Source: Dermatophagoides farinae
Lineage: Eukaryota > Arthropoda > Arachnida > Sarcoptiformes > Pyroglyphidae
Reading direction: 5' to 3'
DNA length: 64,000 nt
Assembly: GCF_024713945.1 (NCBI RefSeq)
Contig: NC_134685.1
Coordinates: forward strand, 744,001 to 808,000
The notes below the pieces were generated by a model. It did no database searches. It was not told the DNA's origin and was given only the letters and a program-made list of their open reading frames with translations. Each line of letters begins with the position of its first letter. Position 1 is the first letter of the stretch. Shown one piece after another: positions 11,046 through 24,644 of the stretch. A program made the translations under genes and the position numbers.

Positions 11046-12077
11046 TGGACAATTATCTTTCAAATCAGATCATGAAAAACAGAAAAAAAAATTCTCAAAA
11101 AAATCAAAATAAAAAAAATCGGCATCATTGTCAACATTGTTCATAAACGGCGTTACGGTTGAAAATTCGAATATTTTTTCGGGTCAAATCAAGAAAATTA
11201 TTGGGTCAAAAAACAACGATAATGATGATGATGATGATGATGATTCCAACAATCATGTGACCATTAGTCCAACAATCCGAATAATAATAACAATGTGTAA
11301 TGGTCGAAAGATTGAAACAAAATGAATGAATTGTCAAGTCATCGATTGGTTTGGTAAAAAAAAAAAAATATGAAATTCTACATATCATAAACATGGAATA
11401 TTTATTCATTTTCATCCGAATTTAGATTACAACAACAACAACCACAACAGCAGCAAAACCATCCCATCCGACCGACATGTGATTGCTGAATCATTTTCTG
11501 GGTTAAACAGCAGAAAAAAAAACAATGAAAGGTTGGTTCTGTTTTTGTTTTAAACAAAATAAAAAAACTTTCCTTGAATTCAATGATTTTCCATTGATCT
11601 TGGAGATTTCATATACAAACATACACACAAAAAAAAGAAAAATTTTTTCAAGAAATTTTCAAGATTTTTTTTTCATCTTTTTTTAAAGTAGAAAAAAAAA
11701 TTGAAGAGGATGTCGCCAAAATGACGCAAAAGAAAGAACGAATTTCGTATATTCATTCATCATTCATCCATATACACAGGTATGCATGTTGTTCACGGTT
11801 ATTATATTCGAATGATTAAGCAGATAATTATTGCTCATGATGATGATGATGATGATAATCATCAACACCATTTTTTTTTACCGATTCGTTCCCAATGTAA
11901 TATTGTGTTTGTAAAAACATTTTGTTTTTTTTCCTCATCATCAATCAAACAAAACAAAACAAAAAGTGCATTCAAAGTTTGATTACAATTGACTTTTGAA
12001 GAATAACACTGAGGAAAAAGTTTCGGTACGGTTGTTTCTAAAGAAAAAAAAAATATAAAAATTTTTCCATCGAAATA
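11046..12077. other. Shared 5' region of ZNHIT2 and SPTLC2
   Basis: About 1.03 kb lies between divergent start codons. It is AT-rich with (GAT)n at about 11220-11240 and 11836-11855 and poly-A/T runs. There is no supported coding exon; the open frames here are microsatellite translations. Promoters for both genes should be here, but no core element stands out. Confidence 0.5.
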
Positions 12078-14603
12078 ATGGTTGCAAGTGATGCTGGATT
12101 CGAAATTTGTTCGGACAATGAACATTTGGATGATGGTCATCATAAAACATCATGTTTTAATCAAAAATTTGATGAAAATTTTCGTACATCAACAATGATG
12201 ACCACAACAACCACAACCACAACGGCAACGGCTGAACAAAAGATTCGATTTGAAAACGGAAATGCCGAGACTTCTACGACAACAATATTACGACAAACAA
12301 ACGATACGATTATTGTTCCAATGAATGATAAATCAAATTCAGTGATTGAAATTCCAAATTCATATTCCGTTAGCTATCATCCGGAATTGTCGCCAGTTTC
12401 ATTATCATCATCATCATCTAATTCATTATTTGAAACATCGTTATTATCATCACCATCATCATCATCATCATTCTTGGATCCTTATTATCCTGTAAATAAT
12501 TATAATCAAAAAAATCATCATTATGATCAAAAATCATATCGGCGATATAAATCCTTACATAAACGAACGATACGACGACGAAAAATAATTCACAATGATG
12601 ATGATGATGATGATGAAATTGAATGCGTAAATCGAACGACAACAAATACCAATGGCAAACAGCAACAACAACAATTTGAAACAAAAATCATTGATTCAAT
12701 ACAAACACGTGATAAATATTATTCTAGTGATCCAAGATCAATGATTGAACCATCGATTGTTATCAGATTTCTATGCTATTTTAGTTATATGATTCTTGTC
12801 ATTTTTGGCTATTTTCGTATGTTTATGGAATGGCTGAATTTAGGTGATTATAACACAATTATTGAACGTAATCGAAAGGTTTGTTTGGTTTATTCTTTAT
12901 ATTGTGATGAAATAATTTGATCAAAAACAATCGATTAATCGAATTTGGATTTTTTTTTTAAACAGGATTATCGTCCATTATACAATAGTTGGCAAGCATT
13001 TTTCACCCGTTATATTTATCGTCGTGTTGCCGATATATTTGCCATACCGATTACGGGAAATCCTGGCGGTATCGTAACAGTTCTTGAACGAGAATCAAAT
13101 GATAGAAATTTTACATTTCAATTGACTGGAAAACAATTTGATTGTATTAATCTTGCATCATATGATTATCTAGGATTTTCTCGTCAAAGTTCATCAGATC
13201 CATCGATTGAACAAGCCATACGTAAATATGGTGTTGGTATTAATGCCATACATGAAATTGGTTGGTGATCATAAAATTTTTAAAAAAAAAATTTATTGAA
13301 ATTTTTTTCAAATACCAAAATCAATAATCAATAAAAAAAAATTTTTTTCTTTCTAAATTATTCTGTTTTTATTGAATTTCTCTTTTTTTATACATAGGAA
13401 TGTTAGATTTACATCGAAAATTGGAACAAAAATTTGCTGAATTTTTACAAGTAGAATCCTGTATAGTATTCGGCATGGGTTTTGCCACCAATTCAACAAA
13501 CATTCCTTCATTGGCCGATAATGATTGTTTAATACTAGCTGATTGTCGTAGCCATGCTTCAGCTAAATCTGGTATCTATTTATCTGGTGCAACATTCGAT
13601 TATTTTAAACATAATGGTAAATATAATATAATAAAATTTTAATGTGGTCCAAGATTATTTTTTTTTTGTTTTTGTTTTGTTTAACCTAACCTTACCTAAC
13701 CTAACCTTACCTACCTAACCTAACCTATAATAATCATAAAAAAATAGATTGTAATGATTTGGAACAAAAAATCTGTAATGCCATTTTGTATGGACATCAT
13801 GGTAAACCGTGGAAAAAGATAATCATCATTGTTGAAGGTGTTTACAGTATGGAAGGAACAATTGTTGATCTACCAAGATTGATTGAATTGAAACAAAAAT
13901 ATAAATGTTATCTTTATGTGGATGAAGCACACAGTATTGGTGCTGTTGGACCAAATGGCCGTGGCATTGTTGATTATTTTGGCTGTGATCCTAAAGATGT
14001 TGATCTTTTGATGGGTACGATGACCAAAAGTTTTGCTGCTGCTGGTGGATATTTAGCCGGTGGTAAACAATTGATTGATCATATTCGACAACATTCATTA
14101 TCCAATTATGCTGGTAGTATATCGGCACCGATTGCACAACAAATAATCAATACATTATCAATATTATTATGTGATCGAAATAATATTATCGATACGGAAG
14201 GTTGGTTTGTTGTTGTTTCGGTAATTTTTTTCAATTTCATAAAAAAATTCAATTTTTCTTCACCTAAGGACAACGACGAATTCAACAATTGTTATCAAAT
14301 ACACATTATATGCGTGATCGTCTTCGAAATTTAGGTTTTGTAATAGCTGGTCATTATGATTCACCAGTAATACCAATAATGATTTATATACCAGCAAAAA
14401 TTGGTTCCGTCGTTAGGATGGCCGTAAAGAATGGTTTGGCATTAGTTTGTGCCGGTTATCCAGCCACATCTTTGACAACAAATCGTATCCGTTTGTGTAT
14501 GACAGCACAACATTCACGTGAAACATTAGATCAAGCCATACGTATTCTAAGCATGATTGGTGATGTTCATCACATTAAATATCAACGTTATGGTGTTCTA
14601 TGA
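12078..14603 (+). CDS. SPTLC2: Serine palmitoyltransferase long-chain base subunit 2
   Basis: Catalytic PLP-dependent subunit of serine palmitoyltransferase, which condenses serine with palmitoyl-CoA at the ER as the first step of sphingolipid synthesis. Five exons: 12078-12878, 12966-13260, 13398-13616, 13748-14200 and 14269-14603, summing to 700 aa. The N-terminal ~210 residues are Ser/Thr/Asp-rich and longer than in human (562 aa total). A membrane segment (IRFLCYFSYMILVIFGYF) precedes the conserved core. Core motifs: DYRPLYNSW, SYDYLGFSR, GMGFATNS, VEGVYSMEG, VDEAHSIGAVGPNGRG, and MTKSFAAAGGY with the PLP Schiff-base lysine at about K532. The usual catalytic-subunit pattern CRSHAS replaces the more common DxxNHAS wording. 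The C-terminus (RIRLCMTAQHSRETLDQA) is intact. Intron 3 holds a TTAGG-like tract. Confidence 0.93.
13681..13728. repeat. Interstitial telomere-like (CCTAA)n tract in SPTLC2 intron 3
   Basis: About 48 bp of CCTAA units interspersed with CCTTA and CCTA variants lies in the 131-nt third intron of SPTLC2. On the other strand this is TTAGG, the usual arthropod telomere unit. It is internal, short and imperfect, so it is not a chromosome end. Confidence 0.8.
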
Positions 14604-14697
14604 TAAAAAAAAATTTAAAATAAAAACAAAAAAACATTTGATAAGTGAATATGACGACAAAGTTCTTTAAAGAGATTCAAAGAGAGTGAAAAAAAAA

Positions 14698-14775
14698 TAT
14701 TCAGAAAATTATCGATCTAATCAAATTGAAATTTCAGATAATGTAGGTAAGGAATCGAAGTATTCATCACTGCTT
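14698..14775 (-). ncRNA. C/D-box snoRNA, copy 1 (28S guide, SNORD34/snR62-like)
   Basis: On the minus strand a C box (GTGATGA, 14770-14764) is followed by a guide, a D' box (CTGA, 14737-14734), a weaker C' (TGATTAG) and a D box (CTGA, 14704-14701), 70 nt from C to D. The guide just before D' reads CCTTACCTACATTAT. Its complement ATAATGTAGGTAAGG matches the conserved 28S/25S segment that continues GGAAGTCGGCAA, recalled from eukaryotic rRNAs. The D+5 rule places 2'-O-methylation on the U of AAUG. That is the site I associate with yeast snR62 and human SNORD34. The terminal stem is only a weak A/U pairing. A paralogue lies 235 bp away. Confidence 0.7.
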
Positions 14776-14813
14776 TTCATTTTGAAGGAAAATTACGCAT
14801 TGAATCCACTTAC

Positions 14814-15058
14814 TTGATCATAATAATTTCCAACCATTGGGCGAGGGGGGAACCTGTGGTGGAAAAAATGAAAAAAAATTAGCAATTTTGAAATCACAGT
14901 AAATCAATAAATTCGAATAATAATCGAAAAAAAATCAGAATAAAATGTTTTCATCAATTAGAAATTTTTCAGATAATGTAGGTAAGGAATCGAAGTATTC
15001 ATCATTGTTTTCTTTTCGAGAAAATTTTAAAAAAATTTTTTGAAAAATTAAACTCACC
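14814..15058 (-). other. Candidate spliced snoRNA host transcript (minus strand)
   Basis: A donor GTGAGT begins at 15057. An acceptor CCACCACAG ends at 14854. A 40-nt exon (14853-14814) is then followed by a second donor GTAAGT at 14813. Each snoRNA would sit in one of the introns. Copy 2's D box lies about 80 nt upstream of the acceptor, the spacing typical of intron-encoded C/D snoRNAs. The 5' exon would cover the CA/AGC repeat above 15058. The final acceptor for copy 1 is uncertain (candidates near 14665 or 14598, the latter overlapping SPTLC2 antisense). A frame is open across the first junction but looks like microsatellite translation, so a non-coding host is my preference. Confidence 0.45.
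14930..15010 (-). ncRNA. C/D-box snoRNA, copy 2 (same 28S guide)
   Basis: On the minus strand: C box ATGATGA (15005-14999), D' CTGA (14972-14969), perfect C' TGATGA (14956-14951) and D CTGA (14938-14935), 71 nt from C to D. The first 38 nt are the same as in copy 1, including the whole guide CCTTACCTACATTAT. The sequence after D' has diverged. That pattern (conserved boxes and guide, drifting remainder) is what a duplicated functional snoRNA should show. Flanking A- and T-rich ends could form a short terminal stem. The predicted target is a uridine in the conserved AAUGUAGGUAAGG segment of large-subunit rRNA. Confidence 0.78.
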
Positions 15059-15081
15059 AATTTGCAAAATGCAAAATAAAT

Positions 15082-15129
15082 CACACGCGCACACACACAC
15101 ACACACACACACACAGCAGCAGCAGCAGC
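15082..15129. repeat. (CA)n / (CAG)n compound microsatellite
   Basis: About 32 bp of CA repeat (starting CACACGCGC) runs straight into five CAG units, between the snoRNA pair and IARS2. On the minus strand it would be transcribed as (CUG)n(UG)n in the first exon of the candidate snoRNA host. Confidence 0.85.
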
Positions 15130-15357
15130 CCAAATGCACGTGGAGGAAATGAATTCGAACGATGATTATGATACAGACGAAAAAAAATGAATTAATCGAT
15201 TGTTCCAATCGATAGTATCCTTATTGCACTTGGATTCGATTTTCAATGCATCTGATTCAAAAAAATAAAAAATAAATTTTTTGATTTGATTGATTAAAAT
15301 GATCACCATTGATCGTGTTTTTTCAAATTTATAATTATTTTGTTTGTTTGTTGTAAA

Positions 15358-18300
15358 ATGTTTACTTACCATACTGAATCATCGATAATCATACGTTTAT
15401 TGTTTCGAATTATTCGAATAAATCATCGTCGATTCGTCTTGTCGTCACAATGTTTGAATAAATCCTATACACAAACATTGAATCTACCGCAAAGTAATTT
15501 TCCCATGAAACATTCACGTAAATTAGAGCTTAATCTTGAACAACAGGTAAGTTTTGTTTACTTAGTGTATTGTCATTTGATCGAAGCAATTTGTTTTTCT
15601 TGTTTCATAGAATGTGAAATTTGAAGATTTATTTGGAATATCGTCACAACAAAGAAAATGTGGAAAATTCCTATTACATGATGGTCCACCATATGCAAAT
15701 GGTGATGCACATTTTGGCCATGCCATCAATCGAGTTCAGTGTTGTATTTTTATTCATTTCTTTTTTTTTGGATTTTGATTGATTTTGTTTGTTTTTCATC
15801 CGGATCATATAGATTCTTAAAGACATAATTAACAAACGAAAATTATTGGAAAATTTTTATGTCGATTTTCGTCCCGGTTGGGATTGTCATGGATTACCGA
15901 TCGAATTGAAAGCGATACCGAATAATTCGGATTCTCGCCGATTAAATCCATTAGAAATTCGTGATCGTGCACGAAGATTAGCTTTCAATGCAATTGATCG
16001 TCAACGGCAAGCATTCAATCAATGGTTTTTATCCGCTAATTGGTCCGGCATTTATCGGACAATGGATTTGGAATATTCTATTCGTGAATTGCATGCATTC
16101 TATGATATGTACCGTAAAGGATTGATATTTCGTGATCGTATGCCGGTTTATTGGTCACCATCCACACGAACAGCATTGGCTGAAGCTGAACTTCAATATC
16201 AAACAGATCATTTATCACGTGCTGCCTTCATACGATATCCAGTGGTTGATCAACATTATGATGCCTTAATTTGGACTACAACACCATGGACATTGTTGGC
16301 CAATGAAGCAATTGCTTTCGGTGAAAGAATGAATTATTGTTTGATTCGTATCGATGGTGATAATAATCAACGACCATTACTAATTGCACGAGAAAATCTT
16401 GTCACCATTCAGGAAATGTTCAAAGATTGCCGCATACAAATTGTTCAAGAATCAATTTCAGAATTTCAAAATTTTCGTTATCAAGATCCAATTAATGGCC
16501 AATGTAAATCATTTTTACCTAGTACATTGGTCACATCATCAAAAGGTACTGGCCTCATTCATATAGCACCGAATCATGGACAAGAAGATTTTAAATTAAT
16601 GAGACAATTTTTCTGTAAACAGCCAAATAGTGATAATAATTATCTGATGAGCAAAGAATCTATTGTCGATGATGATGGAAGATTACGATTACCGAATAAT
16701 GGTGGCCAATCCATATCAATAATCGATGATAATCAAGCATCAAAATATGTTTTACAAAATTTATTACCTAAAGAATGTGTTCTTTATGAACATGATTACC
16801 TGCATAGTTATCCATATGATTGGCGTAGTTCAAAACCTGTCATTATAAAACCATCTGATCAATGGTTTTTGAATATGGATGAACTTCGCGATAAATGTTT
16901 AGCTGCATTATCCGATGTACGTCTTTATCCAGAATTATTACGAAAAGAAATGATAAATCAATTATCAACAAGACCTAATTGGTGTCTATCACGACAACGA
17001 AAATATGGTGTACCAATACCGGTATTTTTCGATCGAAAAACTACCCTTCCCGTTTTGAATGATGAAATTTTTCAAACTTTGATGAAGAAATTCATTCAAG
17101 AAGGTTCATTAGATATTTGGTGGCAACAATCACCATCAGAATTGTTGGCCGAATGTCCAGATCGTTCGTTGGATCTAGTCAACCTGGAAAAAAGTGAAGA
17201 TATTCTTGATATTTGGTTTGATTCTGGTTGTAGTTGGCTTGCCGTTCTTGGTCCAGATGAAATAGCTGATCTTTATCTTGAAGGTGTTGATCAAATACGT
17301 GGTTGGTTTCAATCATCATTGATAACATCGGTTGCTCTTCGTGGCCATGCACCATATCGATCTATTATAATACATGGATTTGCTCTCGATCGTGATGGTT
17401 ATAAAATGAGTAAATCATTGGGAAATGTTATCAATCCAATGGATATTGTCAATGGAAATGCATTTGAATCAAATCAACAACAAACACCAACAAAGAAACG
17501 AAAAAATTCTGGTGATTGTGGTGTCGATGGATTACGTCTTTGGATTGCACGTAATGCCTGTACACATAATGATGTACACGTTGATTTGAAAGAATTTCAA
17601 GATGATATCCTAACCATTTTGAATCGATTTCGTAATACATATCGATTCATTCTTGGTTATCTAACAAAATATTCACCATCAGATCACTCATTTTTAATTG
17701 ATTATAATAAATCATCATCAATCATTACCATTAATTGATCAACATCTTTTATATCAAACATGGATATTTGATCAAAAAGCACGAAAATGTTATAATGAAT
17801 ATCGACTTGGTGATCTTATCGAGATGATGATACATTTTTTTAATTATGAATTTTCAACATTTTACCTATCACGTATTAAGGATCGTCTTTATTGTGATTC
17901 AACCGAATCAATGGATGTTCGATCCATTATGACTGTTTTATATTATGTATATCATACCGTTGGATTTCATATGGCACCGATATTACCACATTTGATTATT
18001 GAATGTCAACAATATTGGCCATTTGTTCATCAAGCTGTGATAGGCAATAATAATAATAATCGAATGATGAAAGAGAATCTAGAACAATCTGAATTATTAT
18101 TGAAACAATTTCAATTTATACAATCAATTATTGCTTGTATAAATGAATGGGCTACATCGAAACATCGTTTAATCGATTTGGATTGCCATCTTTCGATATC
18201 GGCAAATCATCCAAATGTTCGTGAAATGTTTGCTACATTTCAAAGGTTTCAACCTGAATCATCAATTAATGACGGTGGAATGGAATGTCGTTCAGATTTA

Positions 18301-22988: not shown

Positions 22989-24269
<1,281 letters not shown>

Positions 24270-24644
24270 ATGGCACCACCAAGTACTGGAAAAGCGGTAA
24301 AAAAATCTGGTAAAGCCCAGAAATCTGTTCGTGTATCGGATAAAAAGAAAAAACATCGCCGCCGTAAAGAATCATTCTCAATCTATATCTATAAAGTATT
24401 GAAACAAGTACATCCAGATACTGGAATATCATCCAAAGCAATGTCTATTATGAATTCATTTGTGAATGATATTTTTGAACGTATAGCTGCTGAAGCATCA
24501 AGATTATCACATTATAATAAACGTACCACAATTACAAGTCGAGAAGTACAGACTGCTGTACGTCTTTTATTGCCTGGTGAATTGGCCAAACATGCTGTAT
24601 CCGAAGGTACAAAAGCTGTAACCAAATATACATCAAGTAAATAA
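24270..24644 (+). CDS. H2B: Histone H2B
   Basis: Core nucleosome histone H2B, 124 aa, intronless. The N-terminal tail is Lys-rich ([12 protein letters not shown], then [12 protein letters not shown]). The histone fold is near-canonical: [56 protein letters not shown]. The C-terminus keeps the conserved ubiquitin-acceptor lysine in AVTKYTSSK. The 3' flank shows no SLBP stem-loop but does have AATAAA at 24876-24881, so a polyadenylated mRNA is likely. It is paired head-to-head with H3 and convergent with IFT81. Confidence 0.95.

Follow-up and report, generated by a model that had tools for sequence, protein, structure and literature searches.

A tandem pair of putative box C/D snoRNAs for the SNORD34/snR62 site of 28S rRNA in the mite Dermatophagoides farinae

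1. Introduction

Between two plus-strand genes of Dermatophagoides farinae, within a 64-kb window (the whole stretch of DNA analysed, 64,000 nucleotides), lies a short direct repeat that raises a simple question: are its two copies small nucleolar RNAs and, if so, what do they guide and how are they produced? A preliminary description had read the repeat, on the minus strand, as part of two box C/D snoRNAs aimed at a conserved segment of large-subunit (LSU) rRNA. Overall that interpretation is supported by the analysis reported here, although it missed the intron and host-gene context in which the two units appear to sit. As to the species, a group 7 allergen gene of this genome matches Der f 7 of the PDB at 355.6 bits over 168 aa, against 313.5 bits for Der p 7, which places the genome closer to D. 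farinae than to D. pteronyssinus, the two species compared; a second, more distant gene of this family scores about 80 bits with either.

2. Two snoRNA-Like Units Built on a Direct Repeat

The repeat occupies positions 14732-14776 and 14967-15011, that is, 45 nt at 96% identity and a spacing of 235 bp, and the 38 bp originally described are the first 38 nt, which are identical between the copies. The window has only one other same-strand exact repeat of at least 30 nt, a CT microsatellite. A strict C-D'-D pattern (RTGATGA, 15-30 nt, CTGA, 8-35 nt, CTGA), run over both strands of the window, matched in two places only, which we call units A and B:

14935-15005, minus strand: snoRNA-like unit A, 71 nt from C to D, from the box pattern
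14999-15005, minus strand: C box A, ATGATGA
14973-14987, minus strand: guide A, complement of LSU rRNA ATAATGTAGGTAAGG
14969-14972, minus strand: D' box A, CTGA
14951-14957, minus strand: C' box A, TTGATGA, perfect
14935-14938, minus strand: D box A, CTGA
14701-14770, minus strand: snoRNA-like unit B, 70 nt from C to D, from the box pattern
14764-14770, minus strand: C box B, GTGATGA
14738-14752, minus strand: guide B, same sequence as guide A
14734-14737, minus strand: D' box B, CTGA
14718-14723, minus strand: C' box B, weak, TGATTA against the consensus UGAUGA
14701-14704, minus strand: D box B, CTGA

RUGAUGA and CUGA thus bound a unit of ordinary C/D length in both copies, and the lengths of 70 and 71 nt given earlier are borne out by the minus-strand box positions. 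Internal D' boxes are found in both units. The earlier statement that each unit has a C' and a D box stands for both D boxes and for the C' box of A, whereas the C' box of B is only a weak one. A mostly A-U terminal stem is predicted in unit A and none in unit B, and neither unit folds better than its shuffled versions (z of -0.23 for A and +1.30 for B).

The departure of C' from UGAUGA and the lack of a predicted terminal stem in unit B would both fit a situation in which only unit A is functional and unit B is a decaying copy. We regard this as unlikely, in that the C box, the 26-nt stretch from C to D', the D' box and the D box are all intact in B, where the other parts have diverged, and C' boxes of C/D snoRNAs are frequently degenerate.

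3. The Shared Guide and Its Predicted rRNA Target

To find the target, genome contigs were searched for a 22-mer that represents the conserved LSU rRNA around it. The 22-mer was found in five contigs (L011 to L015), which are filed under bacterial metagenome-assembled genomes and in all of which Rfam calls eukaryotic LSU rRNA. The 13 nt AATGTAGGTAAGG are present in all five by construction of the search; past them, towards D', two more rRNA nucleotides match in L011, L012 and L014, and one in L013 and L015. The duplex was then evaluated at four of the five loci (L012-L015, with L011 left out), where L012 and L014 each give 17 pairs with either guide, directly abutting D' (16 Watson-Crick and 1 G-U), and L013 and L015 each give 16, the first of them 1 nt away from D' (15 Watson-Crick and 1 G-U). 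Complementarity of at least 10 nt adjoining D' is therefore present in all four loci, at 16-17 pairs and always with the rRNA of other eukaryotes, and it is on such rRNA that the earlier claim of complementarity to a conserved LSU segment holds. None of 150 dinucleotide shuffles was as good as the guide duplex for L014, and none of 150 for L015, the best shuffle reaching 13 and 11, respectively, against an observed 16 and 15.

By the D+5 rule, the methylated nucleotide is the one that pairs five nucleotides upstream of D'. Counting in this way leads to the U of AAUG, the same U that had been named before.

The corresponding site in the mite's own 28S rRNA is presumed. In the 62.4-Mb assembly, AATGTAGGTAAGG occurs only within the two snoRNAs, and a 26-mer allowed up to 3 mismatches has no match. 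An 18S word is found at five places on four contigs, one of which carries two of them. The five rDNA stretches each contain 18S and 5.8S sequences and a run of 5,000 N; 28S sequence is found in three of them, reaching no further than model position 1383 of 3401, and the other two are without a 28S match. The target site, judged by where the matches in L011 and L013 end, falls near LSU model position 1900, beyond the readable part of the mite's own 28S.

4. Relation to SNORD34 and snR62

The Rfam SNORD34 model (RF00147) aligns over its full length to both units, with the guide and D' box in the same register. The covariance-model check that had been proposed at the outset therefore comes out well in alignment and register but not in score: the units reach 20.4 and 19.7 bits, short of the 38 bits that Rfam sets as the gathering score of the family. 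Nothing in the window exceeds any Rfam gathering score, and the snoRNA pair is not among the matches of a window-wide Rfam scan with E up to 5. In a genome-wide search, the SNORD34 model matched seven other places at 20.9-26 bits, units A and B not being among them, and it gives below-cut-off matches in 11 of 14 control genomes. Scores of about 20 bits for this model are for these reasons noise; the score of the pair carries no weight, and the register does. Elsewhere in the window, a sub-threshold SNORD24 match at 11807-11885 rests on a GAT microsatellite and is not a snoRNA.

Through this register, the D' guide falls on the same U as those of SNORD34 and snR62 (Um2824 and Um1888). A table row in the accessible part of PMC8817022 gives Um2170 for CD17/32, Um1888 for snR62, Um2824 for U34 and Um1882 for AtU34; we read its columns as Dictyostelium, yeast, human and Arabidopsis. 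The excerpt of PMC2780460 places Neurospora CD22 (26S-Um1866, 14 nt at D') alongside snR62 and U34. Assignment to the snR62/SNORD34 site is thus supported by the model register, with snR62 and U34 sharing one site in both papers, and as far as these two sources go the methylation site is an old one, served by snR62, U34, AtU34, Dictyostelium CD17/32 and Neurospora CD22.

Could all of this be chance, a repeat in AT-rich intergenic DNA whose boxes only resemble those of a snoRNA? Both CTGA and TGATGA occur often, and the missing Rfam match above threshold would be expected of such a repeat, but a 16-17 pair rRNA duplex that starts 0-1 nt from D' in both copies, unequalled by the shuffles at each of two loci and in SNORD34 register, makes this scarcely credible. 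We are confident that these are two C/D snoRNA genes for the SNORD34/snR62 site. To judge from their sequence, the pair are probably ordinary, duplicated, functional C/D snoRNAs that work like SNORD34, even though membership of the Rfam SNORD34 family is not reached by score.

5. The Segments between D' and D

Since the two copies share a 28S guide yet differ widely between D' and D, one or both D-box guides may have gained targets of their own; the pair would then be subfunctionalised double guides, and their two-intron host gene specific to mites. The searches give this idea little encouragement, and we consider it quite improbable. Neither unit has a supported D-guide target in L014, L015, the mite's own 18S or the readable 5' part of its own 28S. 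For unit B, the best duplexes in other eukaryotes were 10 in L014 (22 of 150 shuffles as good) and 9 in L015 (72 of 150), and in the mite 7 in its own 18S, where 30 of 40 shuffles did as well, and likewise 7 in the readable 28S (22 of 40).

For unit A, the segment from D' to D forms a 17-pair duplex with the 18S of L014 (14 Watson-Crick and 3 G-U), which none of 150 shuffles equalled. We do not accept it as a guide for methylation: its pairs run into the C' box and include a wobble at D+5. The duplex is absent in L015, where the best was 8 and 139 of 150 shuffles were as good. Against the mite's own 18S, the best near D was 7, with 33 of 40 shuffles as good, and the 12 pairs that can be made out by eye lie far from D+5.

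6. A Candidate Host Gene in the Intergenic Gap

The neighbour upstream of the units is on the plus strand and ends at 14603; it has an aminotransferase class I/II domain in one exon, and its last 110-aa piece has no Pfam match. The downstream neighbour, also on the plus strand, has its apparent start at 15358 and carries, farther along, class I tRNA synthetase and anticodon-binding domains. These domains fit SPTLC2 and IARS2, the names given in the preliminary description, and we call the two genes SPTLC2-like and IARS2-like. By eye, an intron of the SPTLC2-like gene has a run of AACCT/TACCT units at 13683-13726. The arthropod telomere repeat is TTAGG, and this run resembles its opposite strand. 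Elsewhere in the window, histone genes can be picked out by eye from the list of open reading frames at 22989-24644, H3-like on the minus strand and H2B-like on the plus strand.

On the minus strand of 14604-15360, the 5' splice motif GTRAGT occurs exactly twice, at 15057 and 14813, which is 52 and 43 nt upstream of C boxes A and B, respectively. Over the window as a whole, the motif has a background frequency of 0.42 per kb for the minus strand and 0.08 for the plus strand. On the 3' side of each unit a pyrimidine-rich tract is followed by AG (at 14854 and 14665), so that the following arrangement can be drawn:

14854-15057, minus strand: predicted intron 1, GTGAGT...CCACCACAG, 204 nt, containing unit A; motifs observed, splicing predicted
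14814-14853, minus strand: predicted exon 2, 40 nt
14665-14813, minus strand: predicted intron 2, GTAAGT...CTCTTTAAAG, 149 nt, containing unit B; motifs observed, splicing predicted

Because the only two GTRAGT motifs of the gap precede the two C boxes, this suggests a three-exon snoRNA host gene, antisense to both neighbours. When the predicted exons are joined, they yield an 89-codon frame, from stop to stop, that is rich in cysteine and valine from a GT microsatellite, and Pfam has no match for it or for two shorter open frames. The host gene is probably non-coding, like the Drosophila Uhg genes, to reason by analogy. In Drosophila S2 cells, 95% of the expressed snoRNAs are intronic (PMC13228274, in part).

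The units could instead be real C/D snoRNAs transcribed from promoters of their own, as single or dicistronic genes. They do sit in an intergenic gap, Dictyostelium has dicistronic snoRNA units according to the part of PMC8817022 consulted, and neither AATAAA nor ATTAAA, as a poly(A) signal for a host gene, occurs on the minus strand of 13901-14664. Such an origin would, however, leave as coincidence both the position of the two 5' splice motifs, at similar distances before the C boxes, and the pyrimidine-rich tract and AG after each unit; like the decay of unit B, it seems to us an outside chance worth keeping in mind, and release from introns remains the preferred reading.

7. Divergence between the Copies

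The C core, the guide and the D' box are identical between the copies, and the remainder has diverged. The introns align around the whole unit, with similarity that is weak outside the stretch from C through the guide to D': on the 5' side 29 of 300 mononucleotide shuffles were as good, and over the part between D' and the 3' splice site 10 of 300 were. The alignment makes it likely that the copies arose by duplication, with C, guide and D' conserved since then.

Also identical in A and B are the 11 nt that separate C from the 15-nt guide, and the two of them that adjoin the guide can pair with rRNA. The nine directly after the C boxes (14755-14763 and 14990-14998) lie outside the rRNA duplex and are without a known partner. 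That they are shared could be due to gene conversion or to additional contacts.

8. Proposed Pathway and Significance

Taken as a whole, the locus would encode two paralogous C/D snoRNAs, one from each of two consecutive introns. Their host would be a small minus-strand gene, probably non-coding, that lies between the SPTLC2-like and IARS2-like genes of the plus strand. Following splicing, debranching and trimming, each snoRNA would assemble with the usual C/D proteins; the guide adjoining D' would pair with 28S rRNA at AUAAUGUAGGUAAGG, and fibrillarin would 2'-O-methylate the U of AAUG, which corresponds to Um2824 in human and Um1888 in yeast. We hold this full account, of two working paralogues released from introns and guiding 28S methylation, to be likely, with less assurance than the identity of the two genes, because it needs both intron release and two working copies, each of which has a rival of some small weight, and because the readable part of the mite's own 28S stops short of the site.

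With this pair, a rRNA methylation site of great age gains a likely guide from a mite; among the matches listed in a literature search, no paper was evidently on mite snoRNAs. It also indicates that the Rfam SNORD34 threshold misses short AT-rich arthropod copies like these, and it offers, as an intron pair, a simple test case for snoRNA redundancy. In other respects the pair would serve ordinary housekeeping.

9. Comparison with Known Systems

The preliminary description places human SNORD34 in introns of RPL13A, which the part of PMC8629011 covered here does not bear out. The mite units share with SNORD34/U34 (RF00147) the C/D architecture, a guide adjoining D' and the register, and so the same predicted target U; they differ in being sub-threshold, in their number (two) and in having a separate predicted host gene. 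Yeast snR62 can be set beside them by site only, its rRNA site being that of U34 in the accessible parts of PMC8817022 and PMC2780460. Like the Drosophila Uhg-type hosts, in which snoRNAs lie in introns and many are clustered in loci such as Uhg1-Uhg8 (PMC13228274, in part), the mite gene would carry its snoRNAs in introns, but it has only two predicted introns and one repeated guide. Neurospora CD22 likewise uses a D' guide, of 14 nt, for the snR62/U34 site, and, in contrast to the mite units with no supported D guide, it has a second guide, for 18S, at D (PMC2780460, in part). Finally, the deployment of two snoRNAs for one site has a parallel in Dictyostelium, where the same portion of PMC8817022 lists both CD17 and CD32 for it.
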